Shown here in pieces: positions 22,705-35,052 of a DNA stretch of 64,000 nucleotides. A program made the position numbers and the translations under genes. The notes below the pieces were generated by a model. It made no database searches, had not been told where the DNA came from, and was given only the letters and a program-made list of their open reading frames with translations. The DNA comes from Verrucomicrobiia bacterium (lineage in GTDB: Bacteria > Verrucomicrobiota > Verrucomicrobiia > Limisphaerales > JAEYXS01). The stretch lies in NCBI GenBank assembly GCA_036405135.1, contig DASWYF010000009.1, positions 1 through 64,000 of the forward strand. Reading direction: 5' to 3'. Within the stretch, counting starts at the first letter, position 1; each line of letters begins with the position of its first letter.

Positions 22705-23564
22705 AGCTCCACCTTTCCCGCCTTGCACGAAACAGCTTCCACCAAATAGGTGATACTGAGGATCATCACGGCCACCGCCACCGGCTTGGACCACACCGCC
22801 TCCGCCATGTACTTAAGCGTGCTCCATTTTCCCTCCGCTGATGAAGAACCAAAGTCCGCTTCACTCCACGCAAACATCAGCAGACCGAAAACAAAGACCA
22901 CAACGGTCTGCGTGATGCTTTTGACCAGTCTTCTGTGCAACAATAAGTTCTGCGCCACCGCTTTCGCCCGTTTCTCTTCTTCCTCTGCCGTTTCTCTGGT
23001 GAGGACGGCAGCCTCAACCATCGGCTTCGATTCATCCACCAACCGGTGCGCTATCGAATACAACTCCTTCAGCTCCGTTTCCGCCGGTTGAAATCCTGCG
23101 AACTTCACCAAGTCGCAACGCCCCAAAAATGTCGCCAATGTCTTCTTTTGCTCCCCGTTCAGTCGTGGACTTTTCTGCAGCTCCAGCAGAAACTCTTCCG
23201 TGGTCCGTTCCGGTGCACGGAAATGGAATCGATCCTCCAGATATACCCGTACCGCATCTGAAACCACCGAGCAAAACACCTTCGGCTCGATCAAGAGACG
23301 TAAAGCCCCATCCAGTTGCTGATACGCTTTCTGTTCTGGCGAAAGGGCCGGTTTCTTGGGCTTCTCCGGTGGACGGTTCTGCCAAAGGACATAGATACGC
23401 CAAAGGATAACTCCTCCAATCAATGCCACCACCGCCCACGTCAACCACTCCCACCCCAGCGGCACATCCACCAGCGCACGGATGTCACGGATATCCGCGC
23501 CCGCTACATCATTTGTAGCGCTGCCCGGATGCGGGACAATGACTGCTCCAGTGTTCTTAATCAT
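22701..23564 (-). CDS. DUF4381-like membrane protein of the Bat operon
   Basis: A 287-aa protein with a transmembrane helix at ~40-62 (WLTWAVVALIGGVILWRIYVL), followed by a cytoplasmic helical domain with AYQQLDGALRLL, SDAVRVYLEDRFHFRAPERT and FLGRCDLVKFAGFQPAETEL, and two further hydrophobic segments near the C-terminus. Position between DUF58 and batA is where DUF4381-type proteins usually sit. It overlaps the DUF58 gene by 4 bp. Confidence 0.75.
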   Translation of the reverse strand: MIKNTGAVIVPHPGSATNDVAGADIRDIRALVDVPLGWEWLTWAVVALIGGVILWRIYVLWQNRPPEKPKKPALSPEQKAYQQLDGALRLLIEPKVFCSVVSDAVRVYLEDRFHFRAPERTTEEFLLELQKSPRLNGEQKKTLATFLGRCDLVKFAGFQPAETELKELYSIAHRLVDESKPMVEAAVLTRETAEEEEKRAKAVAQNLLLHRRLVKSITQTVVVFVFGLLMFAWSEADFGSSSAEGKWSTLKYMAEAVWSKPVAVAVMILSITYLVEAVSCKAGKVEL

Positions 23565-24493
23565 CCGTGACGACGCCGTTTCTCGCGGGTTTCAAAAAAG
23601 CTGGCCAAGGCCGCCCCATACGCCTCATCCGTGCGCAAGCGTATGGTATCCACACCCAGCGAACGGAAATACCGGCTCAATTCCGAAAGCTCGCTCTCCT
23701 GCCGTTCGCGATAACGGCTGCGAAAGCCCTCGTCATTTGTGTTCACCTCCAGCACCTCACCCGACTCCGCATCACGCAAAGTCAGTCTGCCCACCTTCGG
23801 CAATTCCAGCTCATGCTTGTCTGTGATCTGCACCGCCACCACATCATGTCTGCGATTTGCCTGCCGTATCGCCGCCGTGGCGACCGCTGAAAGTTTCTTC
23901 TCCGCCCGCGGTTTGCTGATGCGCGTCCGGTTCTGCTCCAGAAAATCCGACACCATCACCACGATGGCATGACGGCTGATGACACGGTTCAAGAAGTCGA
24001 TCGCATTGCGCAAATCCGTCCCATGCGATTGCGGCTCGAAGCAAAGCACTTCACGGATCACGCGCAACACATGGCGGCGTCCCTTGCGCGGAGGAATATA
24101 TTTCTCCACCACATCACTGTAGAGCAGCACTCCCACCTTGTCCTGATTGCGAATCGCCGAGAACGCCAGCACGGATGCGATCTCCGCCGCCAGCTCACGT
24201 TTCGATTGTGCACCCGAGCCAAACCAACCAGACGCACTGACATCCACCAGCAAAATCACAGTCAGCTCACGCTCCTCCACGAATTTCTTCACGAAGGGAT
24301 GATTCATCCGCGCCGTCACATTCCAGTCGATGGAGCGCACCTCATCGCCCGGCTGATACTCGCGCACCTCATCGAAGTTCATCCCCTGCCCCTTGAAGAC
24401 ACTGTGATAGTGCCCGGAGAGCGACTCACTCACCAGTCTGCTGGTGCGCAACTCGATCTGCCGCACTTTCTTCAATATCTCGCGGGGAATCAT
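23561..24493 (-). CDS. DUF58-domain protein
   Basis: A 310-aa VWA-like DUF58 protein. The signature PGDEVRSIDWNVTARMNHPFVKKF sits at ~48-72 and is followed by ERELTVILLVDVSASGWFG (MIDAS-like), then DKVGVLLYSD and ISRHAIVVMVSDFLE. DUF58 proteins act with MoxR AAA ATPases as a chaperone-like pair that matures or assembles envelope and metalloenzyme complexes. It is the second gene of the operon, 77 bp after moxR. Confidence 0.9.
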   Translation of the reverse strand: MIPREILKKVRQIELRTSRLVSESLSGHYHSVFKGQGMNFDEVREYQPGDEVRSIDWNVTARMNHPFVKKFVEERELTVILLVDVSASGWFGSGAQSKRELAAEIASVLAFSAIRNQDKVGVLLYSDVVEKYIPPRKGRRHVLRVIREVLCFEPQSHGTDLRNAIDFLNRVISRHAIVVMVSDFLEQNRTRISKPRAEKKLSAVATAAIRQANRRHDVVAVQITDKHELELPKVGRLTLRDAESGEVLEVNTNDEGFRSRYRERQESELSELSRYFRSLGVDTIRLRTDEAYGAALASFFETREKRRRHG

Positions 24494-24570
24494 ATCAGGG
24501 CCGAGGAATAAGAAAATGTGAAGGTCGATGCAAGTATCGCACTTCTCACTTCATACCTCGCGTTTTTGAA

Positions 24571-25560
24571 TCACGGCACCGGCAGCTCATCCAGCAGCTT
24601 CTGCACGATCGTCTCGCTCGTCTTGTCCTCCGCTTCCGCCTCATACGTCACCGTCACGCGATGCCGTAATACATCCATCGCGATGGTCTTCACATCTTGC
24701 GGCGTGACATAACCCCGCCCTTTCAAGAACGCATGTGCCTTCGCCGCCAAGGTCAGCGCGATCGTCGCACGCGGTGAAGCGCCGAGCTGGATCATGCCGT
24801 CCAGGTTGATCTTGTAGTTACGCGGATCACGCGTCGCACAGACCAGGTCCACGATGTAATCCTTCACCTTGTCATCGATGTAGATGTCATTGATCACCTG
24901 CCGCGCACCGAGAATCTGTTTTGGATTCACCACCGCTTGTGCGCTTGGCAATCCCGATGTGCGCGCCATCAGATCAAGGATCTGTCGCTCCTCATCACGC
25001 GAAGGATAACCGATCTTCAGCTTCAACATGAAGCGGTCCACCTGCGCTTCCGGCAGCGGATACGTTCCCTCTTGCTCGATCGGATTCTGCGTGGCCAGTA
25101 CGAGAAACGGCTCTTCCAGCGCATATGTCTTGTCGCCGATCGTCACCTGCCGTTCCTGCATCGCCTCCAGCAAGGCACTTTGCACTTTCGCGGGCGCGCG
25201 GTTGATTTCATCCGCCAGGACAATATTTGCAAAGACCGGGCCCTTGCGTGTCGTGAACGCACCTGACTGGGGATTGAATATCTGCGTGCCGATCACATCC
25301 GCGGGCAGCATGTCCGGCGTGAACTGCAGGCGGGAGAACCGCACATCCAGCGAGTTCGCCAAGGTCTTTACCGATAGCGTTTTGGCCAGGCCCGGCACGC
25401 CTTCCAGCAAAACGTGCCCATTCGCCAAAAGACCGATGACCAGTCGCTCCACCAGATACTTCTGGCCTACCACCACCCGGTTGATCTCACCTAACAATCC
25501 GGGCACAAAAGCCGAGGCTTCCTGCACCGCGGCGTTGATCGCGCTAATTCCTGTGCTCAT
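24571..25560 (-). CDS. moxR: MoxR family AAA+ ATPase
   Basis: 329 aa from ATG 25560. Walker A variant LLEGVPGLAKT, Walker B VLADEINRAPAKVQSALLEAMQE, sensor ATQNPIEQEGTYPLPEAQVDRFMLKL: all standard MoxR. It heads the moxR-DUF58-DUF4381-batA-batBC-batD-batE operon and would act as the ATP-driven chaperone for that membrane complex. A start 102 bp further upstream is open but gives an atypical N-terminus. Confidence 0.93.
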   Translation of the reverse strand: MSTGISAINAAVQEASAFVPGLLGEINRVVVGQKYLVERLVIGLLANGHVLLEGVPGLAKTLSVKTLANSLDVRFSRLQFTPDMLPADVIGTQIFNPQSGAFTTRKGPVFANIVLADEINRAPAKVQSALLEAMQERQVTIGDKTYALEEPFLVLATQNPIEQEGTYPLPEAQVDRFMLKLKIGYPSRDEERQILDLMARTSGLPSAQAVVNPKQILGARQVINDIYIDDKVKDYIVDLVCATRDPRNYKINLDGMIQLGASPRATIALTLAAKAHAFLKGRGYVTPQDVKTIAMDVLRHRVTVTYEAEAEDKTSETIVQKLLDELPVP

Positions 25561-25703
25561 GCAATTTTTCAACAAATCTCTCACACAAAGACAAATCCTG
25601 CGGAGAACGCGTTCAGAAAAAACGGTCTTAAAGACGATTGCAATCGTGAATCCATTTGCCATGCGGATTAATTGACCTATTCTAGCCCCGCATTTGGGCT
25701 GCT

Positions 25704-28700
25704 ATGTTGCCTGCCAGGAAGTTCATCTTAGGGAATCACCTCAGACAATTCTGGGCCGCTTATCTTGTTCTGGTCATCTCGCTGGCACCCGCGCTCATCG
25801 TGTGGACTGAAGTAAAAGACACCGTCCATGAACACGACGTCGCCCGTTTCAGGGCTCTGGTCCGGGAAAATCATCGCGAAATGGAACAAAAAGCCCGGAT
25901 GCATTTCCCTGCCTTGCGCGAAACACGCGGTTTCTTTGAAGCCAGTGAAATCGTGGAACCCTCCGAATGGGATCGCTACATCGCCAGCCTGGAGCTCAAC
26001 CTGCGCTTCCCCGCCTTCAGTGCCATCGGTTTTGCCAAACTGGTTCGTTCCGCGGAAAAAGAATCCTTCGAAAGAGTTTGGCGTACGCAAGGCCTGACCG
26101 CCTACACATTGGCCGAAAGTGCTTCCGGCACAAATTACCCCGTCATTCTGATTTCCCCTGATCAAATCTATCCGGTCAAAGATAAACCCCTGGACTTGGC
26201 CCTCCTGCCCGGGGTGCAGGACGCCATGTCCGCATCGCTGAAAACAAACCGGCCCGAGGCCACCGGCGCCCTCTCCCTCTCTCTCCGGGGCCAATCCGCA
26301 TCCACCACCGGCATCCTGCTCGTCCTGCCAGTTTACGACCGCTCCCGCATTACTGGCTCTGACCGCCTCGACGGCTTCATGGTCGGCATAATGGAATTGG
26401 AACGTCTCTTCATGGTCCTGCTGGAAAATGCCCAGCGCAACCACCTCTACTTCACCTTCAGCGAATCCGGTTCCAACCAGCCGCTCTACACCTCACGCGA
26501 TGCCCTCGCCGAAGCCCAGGCTAAATTCTCGGAAGACCGCGAATTCGCCTTCGCCGGACACAAATGGACAATGCGTGTGGAAACCCAGCCCGATTTTTTC
26601 CAAACCTCGGAAAACTTCCTGCCCCAGCTCAGCCTCATCGGCGGTCTGCTCATCAGTGCCGCCCTGTTTGGCATCACTTGGAGCCAGGTCCGGGCCCGCG
26701 CCATGGCCGAAACCCTTTCCAACAACCTTGCCACCGGCGATGAACGCTTCCGCCTCGTCAACAAAGCCACCAATGACATCATCTACGACTGGGACACCAT
26801 CGCCAATCACATCACCTGGAATGAAGCGATGTCCCTGAGCTTTGCCTACGGTCCCGATAAAATCATACCTTCCGTCGAATGGTGGGAGGACAAGATCCAT
26901 CCCCTAGACCGCGTCCGTGTCGTCCGCGGCCTTGAATCCGCGCTCAAAAAAGGCGGTGAATTCTGGGCGGATGAATACCGCTTCCGCCGTGGCGACAATG
27001 AATATGCCACCGTCATCGATCGCGGCTACATCTTGCGTAACGAAAAAGGCGATGTCATCCGCATGATCGGCTCCATGATGGACATCACGGACCGCAAAAA
27101 GTCCGAAGCCGCCCGCCACCGTTCCGATCAAAAACTCAAACTGCATTTCGAACAGACTCCGCTGGCTGTGATCGAATGGGATTTGGGCTTCCATGCCATC
27201 GATTGGAACCCCGGCGCCGAAAAAACCTTTGGCTATTCCGCTCAGGAAGCCATCGGTCGCCACGCCTCAGAGCTGATCGTGCCCGAGTCGGCCCGCCGTC
27301 ATGTGAATGAAGTTTGGCAGGCACTGCTGGTGGCGAACAGCTTCGGCCAGCGCAGCACGAATCAGAACTGCACCAAAGACGGGCGGATGATCGTCTGCGA
27401 CTGGTATAACACCCCGGTCACAGATCGCGAAGGCAAAGTCATCAGCGTCATCACCCTCGCCATGGATGTCACCGAGCAACGCCATGTTGCCGACGCCTTG
27501 GAAGAAGAGAAAGAACTCCTCTCCGTCACCATGCGTTCCATCGGTGAAGGCGTCGTCGCCACCGACACCGCAGAGAACATCGTGCTGCTCAATCGTGTGG
27601 GCGAACACATGCTCGGCTGCCACCAGCGTGATGTCCTTGGCCAACCCCTCTCCCGCTGGCTCAAGCTGCAACATATCAAATCCGGGGAAATGCTGGAAAG
27701 CCCCGTGACCAAAGTGATCCGCGCCAACGGCCAGGTGGAATTTCACAGCCAGCAAGCCCTGCTGGTGGACGTTCCCAACGAACGCCGCATCTCTTTTTCA
27801 TGCAGCCCCATCTATGGGGGCGATAGCAGGTTGCTCGGCAGCGTCCTCGTCTTTCGTGATGTGACCGATGAAACCCGCACTGCCGAGGAACTTCTCCGCA
27901 CCAGCAAACTGGAATCCCTGGGCATACTCGCCGGTGGCATTGCCCATGATTTCAATAACATCCTCACCGTCATCATCGGCAACATCTCCATCGCCAAGAT
28001 GCAGACGCCGCAAGGCAACCCGGCTCAAAACCGTCTGGATGAAGCAGAAAAAGCCAGCCTGCGCGCCCGCGATCTGACATTGCAACTCCTCACCTTCGCC
28101 AAAGGAGGCGCCCCCATCAAACAGACCGCTTCCATCACCGACATCATCAAAGACACCACCGGCTTCGTGCTGCACGGTTCCAAAGTCCAATGCGTATACG
28201 ATCTCGCCCCAGACCTCTGGGCCGTGGAAGTCGATGAGGGCCAGATCAGCCAGGTGATGGACAATCTCGTCATCAACGCCGTGCAAGCCATGCCCAACGG
28301 GGGTAAGATTTTCGTCAGCGGCCAGAATGTCACCTTGGATGCCAATTCAGGCATTCACCTGCCCGCCGGCAAATACGTACAAGTCTCCGTGCAAGATGAA
28401 GGTACTGGCATTCCGATGGATATCTTGCCGAAAATATTCGACCCTTATTTCACCACCAAAGCCTCAGGCAACGGCCTCGGTCTGGCCACCTCCCACTCCA
28501 TCATCCGCAACCATAACGGACTGATGACCGTCCAATCCATCGTAGGCGAAGGCACCACCTTCAAACTCTACCTCCCGGCATCCGACAAACCACTCCGTCA
28601 GACCCGCATCGACCTGAAACCGCTCACCAAATGCCAGGGACGCGTGCTGGTGATGGATGATGACGACCGCATCCGTGACCTCCTGAAATCCATGATTGAA

Positions 28701-29027
28701 GCCCTGGGATATGAGGCCGAAACGACCGCCACCGGCAACGAAGCCGTAAACCGCTACCGCGATGCCATGTCTGCCGGCAAACGCTTTGATGTCTCCATCA
28801 TGGACCTCACCATACCCGGCGGCATGGGTGGCAAGGAAGCCGTGAAACTGATCAAAGAACTCGATCCCAAGGCAAAAGCCATTGTCTCCAGCGGTTATTC
28901 CAACGATCCTGTAATGGCCAACCATCAGGAAAACGGCTTCATCGGCGTCCTGTCCAAACCCTATAAGATTCAGGACTTGGCGCGGGTATTGGAAGACACC
29001 ATCGGCCACCAAGATAAGCAAAACTAA
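25704..29027 (+). CDS. CHASE-PAS hybrid sensor histidine kinase/response regulator
   Basis: A 1107-aa membrane sensor. A transmembrane helix at ~15-36 is followed by a periplasmic CHASE domain (~60-295, with ARMHFPALRETRGFFEAS), a second helix at ~305-328, three PAS/PAC modules (~345-470, ~475-595, ~600-720), a histidine kinase dimerisation region LAGGIAHDFNNIL with phospho-acceptor His748, an ATPase domain ending in GNGLGLATSHSIIRNHNG, and a C-terminal receiver with VMDDDDR and phospho-acceptor Asp1034 in IMDLTIPGG. A short hairpin AGCCC/GGGCT lies at 25684-25700, right before the ATG. It stands beside the exosortase genes and may control them; no output regulator is adjacent. Confidence 0.92.
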   Translation: MLPARKFILGNHLRQFWAAYLVLVISLAPALIVWTEVKDTVHEHDVARFRALVRENHREMEQKARMHFPALRETRGFFEASEIVEPSEWDRYIASLELNLRFPAFSAIGFAKLVRSAEKESFERVWRTQGLTAYTLAESASGTNYPVILISPDQIYPVKDKPLDLALLPGVQDAMSASLKTNRPEATGALSLSLRGQSASTTGILLVLPVYDRSRITGSDRLDGFMVGIMELERLFMVLLENAQRNHLYFTFSESGSNQPLYTSRDALAEAQAKFSEDREFAFAGHKWTMRVETQPDFFQTSENFLPQLSLIGGLLISAALFGITWSQVRARAMAETLSNNLATGDERFRLVNKATNDIIYDWDTIANHITWNEAMSLSFAYGPDKIIPSVEWWEDKIHPLDRVRVVRGLESALKKGGEFWADEYRFRRGDNEYATVIDRGYILRNEKGDVIRMIGSMMDITDRKKSEAARHRSDQKLKLHFEQTPLAVIEWDLGFHAIDWNPGAEKTFGYSAQEAIGRHASELIVPESARRHVNEVWQALLVANSFGQRSTNQNCTKDGRMIVCDWYNTPVTDREGKVISVITLAMDVTEQRHVADALEEEKELLSVTMRSIGEGVVATDTAENIVLLNRVGEHMLGCHQRDVLGQPLSRWLKLQHIKSGEMLESPVTKVIRANGQVEFHSQQALLVDVPNERRISFSCSPIYGGDSRLLGSVLVFRDVTDETRTAEELLRTSKLESLGILAGGIAHDFNNILTVIIGNISIAKMQTPQGNPAQNRLDEAEKASLRARDLTLQLLTFAKGGAPIKQTASITDIIKDTTGFVLHGSKVQCVYDLAPDLWAVEVDEGQISQVMDNLVINAVQAMPNGGKIFVSGQNVTLDANSGIHLPAGKYVQVSVQDEGTGIPMDILPKIFDPYFTTKASGNGLGLATSHSIIRNHNGLMTVQSIVGEGTTFKLYLPASDKPLRQTRIDLKPLTKCQGRVLVMDDDDRIRDLLKSMIEALGYEAETTATGNEAVNRYRDAMSAGKRFDVSIMDLTIPGGMGGKEAVKLIKELDPKAKAIVSSGYSNDPVMANHQENGFIGVLSKPYKIQDLARVLEDTIGHQDKQN

Positions 29028-29076: not shown

Positions 29077-29106
29077 TTGACCCTTTACCGATAATGCTGT
29101 CATAGT
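29077..29106 (+). promoter_or_regulatory. Promoter-like element of first PEP-CTERM-type gene
   Basis: GTTGACC with TTGACC at 29077-29082, an 18-bp spacer, then CATAGT at 29101-29106, only 7 bp before the ATG. The same layout precedes the paralog at 29911. If used, the transcript would start at or very near the ATG. Confidence 0.4.
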
Positions 29107-29113
29107 AATCACT

Positions 29114-29797
29114 ATGAAAGCTGTGCTCACAACTCTGGCACTAGCCATTCTGCCGTTGATGGATGTTCAGGGTGCCACCATTGACACGTTCAAGACCGGT
29201 ATCGATGAATCCACCGGCAATGTACTCGCGGATAACGCCGCCGATGTCAATTGGACTATCGTCTCTCTGACCGGGGGAAGCGATGGTAGTTTTCCTCGAG
29301 CAGCAGTCGCTACGGGCAAGGAACCTGGCTGGCACTCCAGCATTCCCATGGCAGGCACAGGCCTCATCACCCGCGGCACCGATTGGAACGGGCAAAACGG
29401 CACCTATGCTTACCAATACCAGTTCACCGCAAATACTGCGAGTTACACTAATTTCGCCGTCGGTGGTCTGGCGTGGGCCGATGACCAGGTTCGCGTCTTG
29501 CTGAATGGCAACGAAATCATGGCCATGTCCAGCACCATCTGGAACGCCAACCCTGTTTCCTTCACCAATGCCACCCAGGCATATTTCGTTAACGGGTTAA
29601 ACACTCTTACCTTCGAAGTTTACAATTCAGGGGGTGGTCCCACCGCTTTGAACGTCAGCGGTATCGTAACTGCCACCCCCATCCCCGAAGCCCACGAATG
29701 GGCCATGATGCTCCTCGCCCTCGGTATGGTCGGTTATTTCCGCCGCGAGCAGATCGCAGAATGGTGGAACCGCCAGCAAGCTCAGATAACCACTTGA
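29114..29797 (+). CDS. Secreted protein with PEP-CTERM-like sorting signal (PEAHEW type), paralog 1
   Basis: 227 aa: signal peptide (LTTLALAILPLMDVQG), a beta-rich body with DTFKTGIDESTG, NWTIVSLTGGSDGSFPRA and RVLLNGNEIMAMSSTIWN, and a tripartite C-terminus. The C-terminus has a short motif IPEAHEW, a hydrophobic helix AMMLLALGMVGYF and basic residues RREQ. This is the architecture of exosortase substrates, with PEAHEW in place of the usual PEP motif. An exosortase is encoded convergently 0.8 kb away. The body may be a carbohydrate- or matrix-binding beta-sandwich; that is a guess. Confidence 0.82.
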   Translation: MKAVLTTLALAILPLMDVQGATIDTFKTGIDESTGNVLADNAADVNWTIVSLTGGSDGSFPRAAVATGKEPGWHSSIPMAGTGLITRGTDWNGQNGTYAYQYQFTANTASYTNFAVGGLAWADDQVRVLLNGNEIMAMSSTIWNANPVSFTNATQAYFVNGLNTLTFEVYNSGGGPTALNVSGIVTATPIPEAHEWAMMLLALGMVGYFRREQIAEWWNRQQAQITT

Positions 29798-29872
29798 GGT
29801 CCGCTGGCAATCCACTGCCGTTTATGCCCTATATGGTGAACAGGCGGCGCAATTATTGTAAATCATACCTCG

Positions 29873-29902
29873 TTGACCTTTCCTCTTCAGTTGCTGCATA
29901 AC
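29873..29902 (+). promoter_or_regulatory. Promoter-like element of second PEP-CTERM-type gene
   Basis: TTGACC at 29873-29878, an 18-bp spacer ending TTGCTG, and CATAAC at 29897-29902, 8 bp before the ATG. Word, spacing and distance repeat those of the paralog at 29077. Confidence 0.4.
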
Positions 29903-29910
29903 TCTGCTCC

Positions 29911-30594
29911 ATGAGAGCAGCCGTTCCCGCACTCGCTTTGGCAGTCTTGCCCCTTACTTGCCTTCAGGCCATCGTCATAGATACATTTAAGACGGGCGTG
30001 AACGAAACCACAGGTACAATCCTCGCGGACAACGCCACGGACAGCAACTGGATCATAACCTCCTTAACGGGCGGCAATTCTGATGGCACCTTTCCTCGTC
30101 CTGCCACAGTCACTGATCCCGCCTCCGGCTGGTCAAGCGCGCTGCCCATCGCAGGAACCGCACTCATCACCCGTGGCACGACTGTGGCCGGTGTTTATGG
30201 CACATATACCTTCGCCTACCAGTTCAGCATCAACACCGCCACCCATTCCGGCTTCGCCATCGGTGGCCTCACTTGGGCGGATGATTATATCCGCGTGCTG
30301 CTGAACGGCAATGAGATCATGGCGATGTCCGGACACATCTGGAACCAGCCTCCCGTCAGCTTTACCAATTCCAACCAGGCTTATTTTCTGAACGGCCTCA
30401 ACACGCTGACCTTCGAAGTGTTGAACACCGGTGGAGACGTGGCCATGAACGCCAGCGGCGTGGTCACTGCCACTCCCATTCCTGAAGCACATGAATGGGC
30501 CATGATGATGCTGGCCTTCGGAATCATGGGGTATTTCAGCCTGAAACGCGACTCCGCCCAGAAACTGCCTTCCCAAGCACAGACATCCTTCTAA
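29911..30594 (+). CDS. Secreted protein with PEP-CTERM-like sorting signal (PEAHEW type), paralog 2
   Basis: Also 227 aa and homologous to its neighbour over the full length. It has a signal peptide ending near LTCLQA, then DTFKTGVNETTG, NWIITSLTGGNSDGTFPRP, the central RVLLNGNEIMAMSGHIWN and the C-terminal IPEAHEW, AMMMLAFGIMGYF and KRD. The two genes arose by tandem duplication. The strictly kept sorting-like tail, against a more divergent body, supports its function as an exosortase signal. It converges with the exosortase gene, with only 7 bp between the stops. Confidence 0.82.
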   Translation: MRAAVPALALAVLPLTCLQAIVIDTFKTGVNETTGTILADNATDSNWIITSLTGGNSDGTFPRPATVTDPASGWSSALPIAGTALITRGTTVAGVYGTYTFAYQFSINTATHSGFAIGGLTWADDYIRVLLNGNEIMAMSGHIWNQPPVSFTNSNQAYFLNGLNTLTFEVLNTGGDVAMNASGVVTATPIPEAHEWAMMMLAFGIMGYFSLKRDSAQKLPSQAQTSF

Positions 30595-30601
30595 CCCCAG
30601 T

Positions 30602-32152
30602 TCATTTATCAAACCGCTCTAAATTTCCTCCTGTCTCCAGTTCATCCACCAAACCAAGCGCGAAATCTTCCGCAGTTTTCCTGGCCCCCGCCCAGTCATC
30701 CGCAATCACGGAAACGGCTGCTGTGTGCAACGTCCAGACCTCCTCCGGTTTAAGCAGCAACCTGCGCCTGAGCACATGCCACGTAAGCTCCCGTTCTCCG
30801 GCCAAATACTTTCCCAGGCCATCGGCAAACCAGAAAATCACGTACTGTTTCATCCCCGTTGCTGGCCGGTCAAGCTGCAGCATCACCACCGGCACCTTTC
30901 TCCCATTTCCTGCCAGTTCAATTTCCTCCCTTGCCAGCAACCGCCACCCAAATGAGGTAAAACACCCGGTTGGCTCATGCAAACCCTCACGGGATACCAG
31001 CGCCGTATTGCTCACATACTCCACCCTGCTTTCCCCCCTCAGATAAAGCCGCTTACGCAGTCCGCTCACCCCGTAAAAAAGCACTTCGTGATGCGCGAGT
31101 AATTCATCACGGCCAGACCAGTCGGCCAGCAGGTAAGGCAGTTCTGGCAAAATGATCTCCATCTGGGCATGCCGTTGAAAAGATTGCCGGACCAGAAATA
31201 ACATCGTCAGAACCAGCAGCAGGCCATGCACCACCAGGATCATCGCATGGTCAGATGAATGATTCTTCCGCACCGGCCCCTGCACCGGGGCATCTGCCCG
31301 CCGGTTTCCCCATCGGCTCACGGCATACGCCAGGGGAAAAAACGTCACCATGAAAAAAAACAAGCCCGTCAACTCATGCGCCGCCCCCTCCAGCCATTTG
31401 GGATCCAGCCGGGCAGCGATCAATACCAGTGCTGCCACCCGCACACCGTTCGCAAGCACCGACACGATGAAAAACACCGGCAACAACGCAAAGAAACGCA
31501 ACGGACGCTGGCGCAGCGGTTGCAACAGCATCAACGCCGCCACGAGGAACACATGCATTGTTTTCACCCCGCTGCAAGCATTGCCCACATCCAGTGAAAT
31601 CCCTGTATCCGTCGTCAAAAATGTGCCCGCACGCTCCAGGGCCATTCCCGCTGTGCTCAACATGACCTGCGCCAGAAACGCCGACCATATACGAGCATGC
31701 AACCCCAGGTGATGCTCAATGATCCCGGGAACCGGAAACGCCATGGCGATGCACAACGCCGGAAACCAGGCCATCTTTAAGCCCTCCCTTCCCCCATATA
31801 ACCAGGCCATCGCGGGAATCACCAACGAACAAGACCAGCCCATGATCGCAGAAGCCTCAGCAGACCAACCTGCGAGCAACAACCATAAACCCGCTGTGAA
31901 CAGCAGTAACGCCGCCGTCGGGAATGGCTCATGGTTGGCTCTCGTTGGCGAGTGCTGCCATAAATGACGCAACCAGAAGCCGCCCAACACCAACGGGATA
32001 ATCCCCAGCAAACTCCCTTCAAAGCGGTACCAATGATCGTAGATGAGCCAGTAAAAGGCGGGCACATACAATCCCAACGTCAGGAAACACAACAATGCCG
32101 CCGGCCACGGCAACGGCAACTTCTCAAGCAAGCGCGCTGCCGATGCATTCAT
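30602..32152 (-). CDS. Exosortase fused to an EpsI-like domain
   Basis: 516 aa. Residues 1-~285 are a multi-spanning exosortase with the three expected active-site residues: Cys193 in NACSGVKTMH, Arg238 in LANGVRVAAL and His259 in AAHELTGLFFF. After a further membrane helix (~303-318), residues ~320-516 are an extracytoplasmic EpsI-like domain (WSGRDELLAHHEVLFYGVSG..., RVEYVSNTALVSREGLHEPTGCF). Exosortases are thought to cleave PEP-CTERM signals and transfer the protein to the surface or matrix. The ATG overlaps the stop of the TPR lipoprotein gene by 4 bp (ATGA), so the two are coupled. Confidence 0.9.
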   Translation of the reverse strand: MNASAARLLEKLPLPWPAALLCFLTLGLYVPAFYWLIYDHWYRFEGSLLGIIPLVLGGFWLRHLWQHSPTRANHEPFPTAALLLFTAGLWLLLAGWSAEASAIMGWSCSLVIPAMAWLYGGREGLKMAWFPALCIAMAFPVPGIIEHHLGLHARIWSAFLAQVMLSTAGMALERAGTFLTTDTGISLDVGNACSGVKTMHVFLVAALMLLQPLRQRPLRFFALLPVFFIVSVLANGVRVAALVLIAARLDPKWLEGAAHELTGLFFFMVTFFPLAYAVSRWGNRRADAPVQGPVRKNHSSDHAMILVVHGLLLVLTMLFLVRQSFQRHAQMEIILPELPYLLADWSGRDELLAHHEVLFYGVSGLRKRLYLRGESRVEYVSNTALVSREGLHEPTGCFTSFGWRLLAREEIELAGNGRKVPVVMLQLDRPATGMKQYVIFWFADGLGKYLAGERELTWHVLRRRLLLKPEEVWTLHTAAVSVIADDWAGARKTAEDFALGLVDELETGGNLERFDK

Positions 32153-35052
32153 CTCTTAGTTTTGCCCTGCTCCCTGGCCGCCAGTTCCAGCTTGGCGGAG
32201 ACCGCCTCATGGCGGCTGTGATTCCTGGCCGCCGGCAACTCCCTATTCAACAAGTCGAATTCCAACCGCGCCTCCATCATCGCGCCTTTGGCCAGCAACG
32301 CCTCCACCAGATGCAACCTTATCTCCACGCTGTTCGGCGCCCGCTTGCGCGCATCCTCCAGCAATGTAACCGCCTGCCGGCTGTCCCCACGGGCCAGCAA
32401 CAATGTGGCGTACGTATCCGCCACCGCCGGATTCCGGCTGTCCAGCACATAAGCCCGTTGCGCCAGTTTGGCCGCTTCATCTAGCTTCTTCTCATCGCGC
32501 GCAATCACCAGACTCAGGTTGTTCAATGTTGCCACATTCTGCGGCTCCTTCTCCAGAACGGTCCGGTAATGATTCTCCGCCAGGCTCCAGTCTCCCCGCA
32601 CCTCCCGCAAACGACCGCAAATGAACCGCAAGGCGGCGTTCTCAGGATCCAGCTTCAACACCTCTTCCATCACCGGGGCGGCATCCCTCTCCATGCCCGT
32701 TTGCACGAATGTGTCCAGCACCCGCTGTTGCAACCTGGGTTCACTTGCCGCCTTCTTCAATCCTTCCAGGGACAGCCTGCGGGCTCCTTCAAAATCCTTG
32801 TCATCCATCAGCATGTTCACCTCTGCGAGATAGCGGTCCGGCTCATCCGGAAAATCGTGCTTCAACCGGTCCAACCGCTCGCGGGCCTGATTGGTTTGTC
32901 CCATGGCACGCAGCAACTCAACCTCCAGCGGCTGCAACAACAGGTTGGTGGACTGTAGCTGCAACCCTTTCTGCACATGCGCCAAGGCGGGAGCAACCCC
33001 GTTGGTACTCAACGCCAGCAATGCCCGGGCGTGTTCAGCCGGAGCATACCCAGGATGCATCGTGCTCAACTCCGTCGCGTTCTTGCGAGCTCTCGGCCAT
33101 TCGCTGTTCATCATGTTTCCCCGCACTTCGAGATAACGGGCGAACGCATTCGTAGGCGAAAGTTTCACAGCCAGCTCCGCCGCCTGCAGCGCCCTTTTGA
33201 AATTGTCCCGTGCGAACTCTGCCAACGACCACAGAAGCGCTGCCTCCACCTCCGGGCGCTTCAAGTTTGCCGCCCTTTCAAAATACTCGGCTGCCTGCGC
33301 GTAATTCTCCTTCTCCTGGTTCAAATACCCCGATCCCATCAACGCGATCCGGTCGGAAGCATCATGGACCAGCGCATCAGCAAAATGCTTCCCTGCCGCC
33401 ATGGTGTCTCCCTTCGCCCGGCTGATCACACCCCAGAGCGCGTAAGCCCGGGCGTTTTTCGGGTCCAGTTCCAGTGTCCTCCTCAAATGCCTCTCCGCCT
33501 CATCCGCCTCCTGTAACCTCAGATGTATCTCCGCCAGCAGCAGATTCGGCCCTGCTTGGGAGGAGATGAGTTCGTTGCCAGTTTTCAACAAGGTCACCGC
33601 CTCGTTCAAACGATTGCTGCTGACGAGCAATTGCGCCCGCGCATATACACCCGCCGCACTCTCCGGATCGCTCACCGCGATCTGCTCGAAATGGCTTCTG
33701 CCCATCCCGTCTATCTCCAGCCTGCGGGCCGCTTCTGCCGCGATCAAACGCGCTGAAACTGAGGTAGGCTCGTCCTTCAACCATATCTGTGCGTTCTTAT
33801 ATGCGGAACTCAAGTCCCCCATGCCGAACTGCGCCTGGGTCAAGGGACCGATGCGGTCTTTTCCCCGGGCGACCTCCAGCCAGCGCACCGCCCGGGCATA
33901 ATTGGTGATGGACAAATAGCTGCGCCCCAAGGCGCTCCAAACCTGCTCCTGCATCGCCTCATCATGCGGCAGCTTGGCAAATGAAATCTCTGCCTGCATC
34001 GGATCACCCAATTTCAGGTAACAAAGCCCTATCTTGTCAAAAAGACCGGGATAACCGCCCAGCATTGGCTTCAACCGTTCCAGTTCCTTCAAAGCCGCCT
34101 TGTACTCTCCCGCCCCCATCTGCTCCAGCGCACGCAAATATCCCTGAAAGATTTCCTTCTCCCACTTTCTGCCCTGCGCCTTGTTCTTCAAATCGGCCAG
34201 TGCCGCCTTGTCACCCCGCTCGAAATGCAGTTCAGCCAGCCAGAAAAGTACATCCGAATCTTTCGGGTTGATGGCGTGCGCCTGCTCATAAGAGGCGATG
34301 GCATCGGTCATCCGCCCCTCCTGCACAGCCAGCGAAGCCAGCCCCAACCACGCCTCATGCTCTGCCGGATACAGAAGCAGGAGGGCCTCATATGCAGCCT
34401 TGGCTTCAGCATACTTTTTACTCGCCATGAAAAGATTGGCCCGCAGCAAGGCAGCTTCACGATCTTTTGGATCGCTCTCCAGCAAGGCATCAAACTCTTT
34501 CAAAGCAGAGTCTGAACGCCCCATCTGATGCAGCACACGCCCTTGGCGAAGCCGGGCGGACCGGATGATCTCCGGAGGCGTTTGCGCCTCTGCCGCCAAT
34601 GCCGCCAGAATTTTTAAAGCCTCCTCCAGCTTCGCTTCCCGGATCAGGAGCTCGGCCTGCATTTCACGCACTGCCGGCCGGTCTTTGACCGCTTGCGGCG
34701 CCAGATCATACAGCTCCTTGGATTCTTTCCAACCGCCAAACTGCAGAAGCAGCCCGACAGTACGCACCAGCAGCGCCTCATCATTTGGCACGGCCCGCAC
34801 CAGCAACATCAGATGCGGCAAGGCCTGCTCGTCCCGTGACTCTTTCAACAGAAGTTCTATCAATCCGTGCCGGAGAGAAAGATCCCCAGGCGCCTCGCGG
34901 ATCGCACGCTCATAAGCCTGGATCGCTCCGGAAAAATTTCCTTTCGCCTCTGCCTCTCGCGCCTGCGCGGCAAAATCGATGCGCTCTTTCTTGCAGCCGG
35001 AAAAAATCAGCCCGGCAACAAGCAAAATCACTATGTAAGCAAGCCCTTTCAA
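32149..35052 (-). CDS. PrsT-like TPR lipoprotein of the exosortase system
   Basis: 967 aa starting at TTG 35052; an in-frame TAG lies two codons upstream, so a longer start is impossible. The N-terminus MKGLAYIVILLVAGLIFSGC is a lipoprotein signal with the lipidated Cys at ~20. The rest is about twenty tetratricopeptide-type repeats (for example FSGAIQAYERAIREAPGDL, DAIASYEQAHAINPKDSDVL, HLRRTLELDPKNARAYALWG). Size and layout match the PEP-CTERM-system TPR protein PrsT, often found next to exosortases. It is the first gene of the two-gene operon and probably organises substrate or matrix assembly at the outer membrane. Confidence 0.85.
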   Translation of the reverse strand: MKGLAYIVILLVAGLIFSGCKKERIDFAAQAREAEAKGNFSGAIQAYERAIREAPGDLSLRHGLIELLLKESRDEQALPHLMLLVRAVPNDEALLVRTVGLLLQFGGWKESKELYDLAPQAVKDRPAVREMQAELLIREAKLEEALKILAALAAEAQTPPEIIRSARLRQGRVLHQMGRSDSALKEFDALLESDPKDREAALLRANLFMASKKYAEAKAAYEALLLLYPAEHEAWLGLASLAVQEGRMTDAIASYEQAHAINPKDSDVLFWLAELHFERGDKAALADLKNKAQGRKWEKEIFQGYLRALEQMGAGEYKAALKELERLKPMLGGYPGLFDKIGLCYLKLGDPMQAEISFAKLPHDEAMQEQVWSALGRSYLSITNYARAVRWLEVARGKDRIGPLTQAQFGMGDLSSAYKNAQIWLKDEPTSVSARLIAAEAARRLEIDGMGRSHFEQIAVSDPESAAGVYARAQLLVSSNRLNEAVTLLKTGNELISSQAGPNLLLAEIHLRLQEADEAERHLRRTLELDPKNARAYALWGVISRAKGDTMAAGKHFADALVHDASDRIALMGSGYLNQEKENYAQAAEYFERAANLKRPEVEAALLWSLAEFARDNFKRALQAAELAVKLSPTNAFARYLEVRGNMMNSEWPRARKNATELSTMHPGYAPAEHARALLALSTNGVAPALAHVQKGLQLQSTNLLLQPLEVELLRAMGQTNQARERLDRLKHDFPDEPDRYLAEVNMLMDDKDFEGARRLSLEGLKKAASEPRLQQRVLDTFVQTGMERDAAPVMEEVLKLDPENAALRFICGRLREVRGDWSLAENHYRTVLEKEPQNVATLNNLSLVIARDEKKLDEAAKLAQRAYVLDSRNPAVADTYATLLLARGDSRQAVTLLEDARKRAPNSVEIRLHLVEALLAKGAMMEARLEFDLLNRELPAARNHSRHEAVSAKLELAAREQGKTKR

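Follow-up and report, generated by a model that had tools for sequence, protein, structure and literature searches.

The window analysed here, a 64,000-nucleotide stretch of a Verrucomicrobiia genome, likely carries a local and largely self-contained exosortase module acting on a PEP-CTERM-type signal with alanine as its third residue. The module combines one exosortase with a helper protein of the TPR type and a pair of paralogous surface proteins, in a genome of 5.8 Mb that encodes three exosortases in total. The window exosortase and the two substrates probably form a dedicated local pair, because their tail is confined to these two genes and its motif is more strongly constrained between them than any other stretch. 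What suggests the pairing of enzyme and substrate is their adjacency, and local pairing appears the best reading because a single-target sorting enzyme usually adjoins its target. Such enzymes tend to be encoded beside the target, as in the case of rhombosortase (PMC3237569), and XrtN likewise adjoins its target in the Bacteroidetes locus that was scored. Systems of this type are already known; new here is an isolated exosortase with a variant tail. No orthologous locus in which tail and enzyme travel together was found in the class and order genomes searched.

Layout of the locus

The features of the module and its neighbour are collected in Table 1. The two substrate genes stand in tandem and face the exosortase and TPR genes, and the housekeeping genes infB-rbfA-DHH-truB-ribF lie upstream of the TPR gene. 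The hexamer TTGACC occurs 37–38 nt upstream of the ATG in both substrate genes, which suggests near-leaderless transcripts from a promoter type common to both; no clear sigma-54 site was seen upstream of the substrates, these sigma-70-like elements being found instead.

Table 1. Positions of the genes and sequence elements of the exosortase locus, numbered along the window
Feature	Position	Strand	Basis or remarks
Hybrid histidine kinase, CHASE-PAS-HisKA-HATPase-REC	25704-29027	+	domain and family matches
Possible sigma-70-type promoter of substrate 1, TTGACC -18- CATAGT	29077..29106	+	consensus match only
Substrate 1, 227 aa	29114-29797	+	N-terminal signal sequence, PEP-CTERM-like C-terminal tail IPEAHEWAMMLLALGMVGYFRR
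PEAHEW motif, substrate 1	29684..29701	+	
TTGACC before substrate 2, possible -35 element	29873..29878	+	sequence
Substrate 2, 227 aa, paralogue of substrate 1	29911-30594	+	tail IPEAHEWAMMMLAFGIMGYF
PEAHEW motif, substrate 2	30481..30498	+	
Exosortase-EpsI fusion, 516 aa	30602-32152	-	Cys193, Arg238, His259; EpsI/DUF3485 C-terminal domain
PrsT-like TPR lipoprotein, 967 aa, TTG start	32149-35052	-	lipobox LIFSGC

The large hybrid kinase that the earlier note placed beside the module does adjoin it, preceding substrate 1, but lies outside the stretch which that note had assigned to the system; it is tied to the module by position alone, and PrsK is not among the best 25 of its 122 NCBIfam matches. 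Directly behind the kinase, on the opposite strand, are genes for a MoxR AAA ATPase and DUF58/VWA proteins (23561-25662). Recent horizontal transfer, as judged by composition, was rejected, since the G+C content of all module genes equals that of the surroundings. Two congeneric genomes were found to have neither an exosortase nor the tail, and in the synteny comparison the sole ribF contig of the congeneric genomes stops within ribF.

The TPR protein, described beforehand as a PrsT-like lipoprotein, was corroborated as such by its lipobox, its TPR repeats and its match to PrsT (TIGR02917), which at 267.3 bits stays below the cut-off of 312.2. The end of its gene and the start of the exosortase gene overlap in an ATGA. 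No strong relative of the TPR protein (E<=1e-50) was found in 335 class genomes, where two candidates were scored per genome, so that misses are possible.

Substrate tails and the exosortase-EpsI fusion

The two substrates are paralogues with 132 of 208 aligned residues identical (63%); in each, IPEAHEWAMM near the C-terminus is followed by a hydrophobic helix and then by a weakly basic tail. This agrees with the tandem substrates and the identical IPEAHEW-plus-helix ending first recognised in the earlier note; the basic end that it described is also present, but it is weak, with a net charge of +1 / +2, and its 16–18 residues past the helix exceed the usual length of PEP-CTERM tails (PMC1569441). 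The stretch VTATPIPEAHEWAMM is identical between the substrates at 15 of 15 residues while 6 of its 15 codons differ silently, compared with 108 of 168 identical residues in the body and 9 of 25 in the helix and end. By our estimate, an identical run of 15 anywhere in the pair would arise by chance about 1 time in 12 at the observed identity; its position at the expected motif site strengthens the case for constraint. Tail identity alone is weak proof because the substrates are paralogues, and gene duplication would account for part of it, the motif nevertheless appearing more constrained than the rest. A search of the 5.8-Mb genome for the tail, which had been proposed as a check, located PEAHEW in the two substrate genes only, and a literature search for PEAHEW gave no match.

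Neither substrate reaches the cut-off of a PEP-CTERM model, with 17.9 and 13.8 bits for PF07589 (cut-off 20.7) and 20.8 and 15.0 for NF035944 (cut-off 35). With PEA instead of PEP, a weak basic end and these scores they fall outside the PEP-CTERM sorting domain as modelled; they do carry a PEP-CTERM-like tripartite signal, in which the motif is followed by a hydrophobic helix at the C-terminus of a secreted protein. Only two other proteins of the genome match PEP-CTERM models above cut-off, both with canonical VPEP and both on other contigs. The structures predicted for one substrate and for the exosortase are of too low confidence for a structural comparison (pLDDT 35 and 44, respectively).

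The exosortase belongs to the exosortase superfamily by its matches to PF09721 (130.9 bits, cut-off 25.7) and TIGR04178 (57.2 bits, cut-off 23), and its Cys193, Arg238 and His259 sit in ACSG, NGVR and HELTG motifs. The fused EpsI domain scores 43.9 bits with PF11984 (DUF3485/EpsI; cut-off 26.1) and 28.1 with TIGR02914, below the cut-off of 42.8. The fusion with a complete Cys/Arg/His triad that had been read from the letters is thereby upheld, both domains exceeding their Pfam cut-offs. No named exosortase class model (XrtA, B, C, D, N, O, Q, T, V, W and others) was matched above cut-off, the best scores being those of XrtD (109.6 of 400 bits), XrtW (103.8 of 425) and XrtA (79.4 of 208). A search of 293 genomes of the order found no relatives at E<=1e-30, plasmids had none either, and a pattern-based scan of species genomes, of limited sensitivity, likewise gave none; the best match in 384 class genomes reached 57 bits at 27% identity. 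The class phylogeny that the note had called for, a tree of 46 exosortases, places the window enzyme on the longest end branch (2.23), with identity of at most 26% and in no starred group. The enzyme thus appears to be an isolated branch; in the tree it does not group with XrtN, and tests do not reject a grouping with XrtN (AU p 0.096), XrtB or XrtA. That it is the first member of a new exosortase class, with a substrate specificity of its own that accepts alanine in the third position and reads EAHEW, and is kept apart from the PEP-reading exosortase or exosortases of the cell, is a proposal we hold to be unlikely while granting it an appreciable chance.

In the mechanism that we propose, signal peptides would export both paralogous substrates, and the C-terminal helix would hold them in the inner membrane so that IPEAHEW faces the periplasm. 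Cys193 of the neighbouring exosortase-EpsI fusion, with the help of Arg238 and His259, would then attack at or near PEA; the enzyme would remove the helix and pass on a surface protein, either free or anchored anew, whose destination would probably be the exopolysaccharide or the outer surface. This picture of cysteine-dependent cleavage at the motif, followed by transfer or release, follows the family and the archaeosortase model (PMC7157517). The PrsT-like TPR lipoprotein, translationally coupled to the enzyme, could serve as a periplasmic or outer-membrane partner, and PEAHEW would represent one flavour of PEP-CTERM-type signal with alanine as its third residue rather than a separate code.

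Tails of the same kind in other genomes

The PEAHEW pattern was found in the DNA of 8 other genomes among the 384 of the class, and on reading none of these was a C-terminal tail. Across 84,980 species genomes, 116 stretches matched PE(P/A)HEWA(L/M/V), and 80 of them were read. The majority of those read belong to Bacteroidetes proteins of about 850 residues ending in VPEPHEWALI; the one that was scored is an XrtN target (TIGR04477, 902 bits), and the gene that immediately follows it encodes XrtN (305 bits, cut-off 200). In Alphaproteobacteria and Hydrogenedentota, PEPHEWA proteins adjoin XrtQ-like exosortases that score below the XrtQ cut-off. PEPHEWAM tails were found in Burkholderiales, where one protein (L126:881-1546), beside chain-length/EPS-type genes, has the tail VPEAHEWAMMLAGLGLVGWAVRRR with VPEAHEWAMM, in a genome encoding XrtB (336 bits, cut-off 275) and XrtA (253 bits, cut-off 208). 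Within the class of the window, a secreted protein (L055:954-1701, in genome G012) has the tail IPEASSWAMLSVGLLGLAG with IPEASSWAML, that is, PEA without HEW.

VIT-like PEPHEWAL proteins of Alphaproteobacteria and Hydrogenedentota stand directly beside XrtQ-resembling exosortases at L090:5572-8000, L078:2268-5461, L095:2198-6414, L138 and L099. These exosortases form a clade apart from XrtN, and the pairs are possibly an undescribed parallel to the XrtN pair.

The earlier note had suggested that PEA followed by a fixed HEW may define a dedicated signal of this exosortase. If so, the enzyme would read the third-position alanine and HEW and reject PEP tails, leaving them to the other exosortases, as would fit a tail that occurs in the genome only beside the window enzyme, two canonical VPEP proteins that lie on other contigs, a motif constrained between the copies and an enzyme on an isolated branch. 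We nonetheless regard this as rather unlikely. Two paralogues are too few to define a motif, and XrtA/XrtB, XrtN and XrtQ-like enzymes have PEAHEW or PEPHEW tails in the same genome or directly beside them. Tails without such an exosortase, which the note had named as refuting its reading, are thus found, strictly as PEAHEW in a single case and as PEPHEW in many. Because such tails accompany other exosortases, neither HEW nor PEA needs the window enzyme, and because HEW and alanine recur in unrelated settings, PEA-HEW is no private code. Judged from sequence, PEAHEW is thus a mild variant of the PEP-CTERM-type tag and not a new sorting code. The recurrence of PE(P/A)HEW with several exosortase classes argues, moreover, against assigning a class from the tail alone.

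The two other exosortases of the genome could act on the PEAHEW tails. One, on contig C38, is closest to XrtA and lies with a separate EpsI in an EPS-type locus; the other belongs to a second module on contig C2. The high divergence of the window enzyme and the PEAHEWAMM tail of the XrtA/XrtB genome would both agree with processing by one of these two, the window enzyme being degenerate or otherwise employed, but that enzyme still has its full catalytic triad together with an EpsI domain, and adjacency and the exclusively local tails point to local pairing, which leaves this explanation little probability. Still less can be said for the tail being a relic in which a change from proline to alanine at a key position disabled sorting and left the proteins anchored in the membrane. 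The weak basic ends and the sub-cut-off PEP-CTERM scores would be expected of such a relic; the motif, however, is exact in both copies despite diverged silent sites, and PEA occurs independently in other genomes, so that we consider it very improbable. Local pairing therefore remains our preferred reading.

For the question of how exosortases recognise their tails, this genome is a compact natural experiment. Three exosortases share it, two of them beside candidate substrates of their own with differing tails (PEAHEW and PEVGTN), and a few canonical PEP proteins lie elsewhere, which would allow specificity set by the motif to be told from specificity that comes solely from where the genes lie and how they are expressed.

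Comparison with known systems

The XrtA-XrtB systems of Betaproteobacteria, which include PrsT, resemble the window module in a PE(P)xxWAM tail with helix, a PrsT-like TPR lipoprotein, and exosortase and EpsI functions. Unlike them, the window tail has alanine for the second proline, the exosortase reaches 79 of 208 bits for XrtA and 61 of 275 for XrtB, and the module has no recognised PrsK/PrsR pair and lies outside an EPS locus. The XrtN system of Bacteroidetes (TIGR04476 with its TIGR04477 VIT-domain target) likewise has an exosortase adjoining its target, whose VPEPHEWAL shares P-E-x-H-E-W-A with the window tails; however, that target is a VIT protein of ~850 aa, and the window enzyme has an EpsI domain and scores 53 of 200 bits with XrtN. 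XrtD and XrtW, whose long models extend into the C-terminal domain, are the best NCBIfam matches, and the XrtD alignment covers both domains, but the window enzyme remains far under the cut-offs of 400 and 425, and XrtD is named for VPLPA tails.

Parallels in gene order come from the class itself. On contig C2 of the window genome (G000, L067:7968-12151), the second module comprises a TPR protein, a 563-residue exosortase and a 278-residue protein ending in VPEVGTNLAAFCLCACVVLGRYIRRYR, a VPEVGTN tail whose PEV variant is unmatched by any family model. In genome G115 (L208:7068-18582), a TPR gene overlaps an exosortase gene of fused length, followed by two proteins with the canonical PEP tails VPEPSLIGL and VPEPALIGL, almost identical as VPEP(S/A)LIGLxGVGALLG. 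Both modules share with the window the overlap of TPR and exosortase genes and nearby substrates, and differ from it in their tails, VPEVGTN or VPEPxLIGL; their exosortases form with other class members a separate clade (98/98), outside which the window enzyme falls. A TPR gene, an exosortase and nearby substrates thus make up a recurrent plan in this class, with the third residue of the motif varying.
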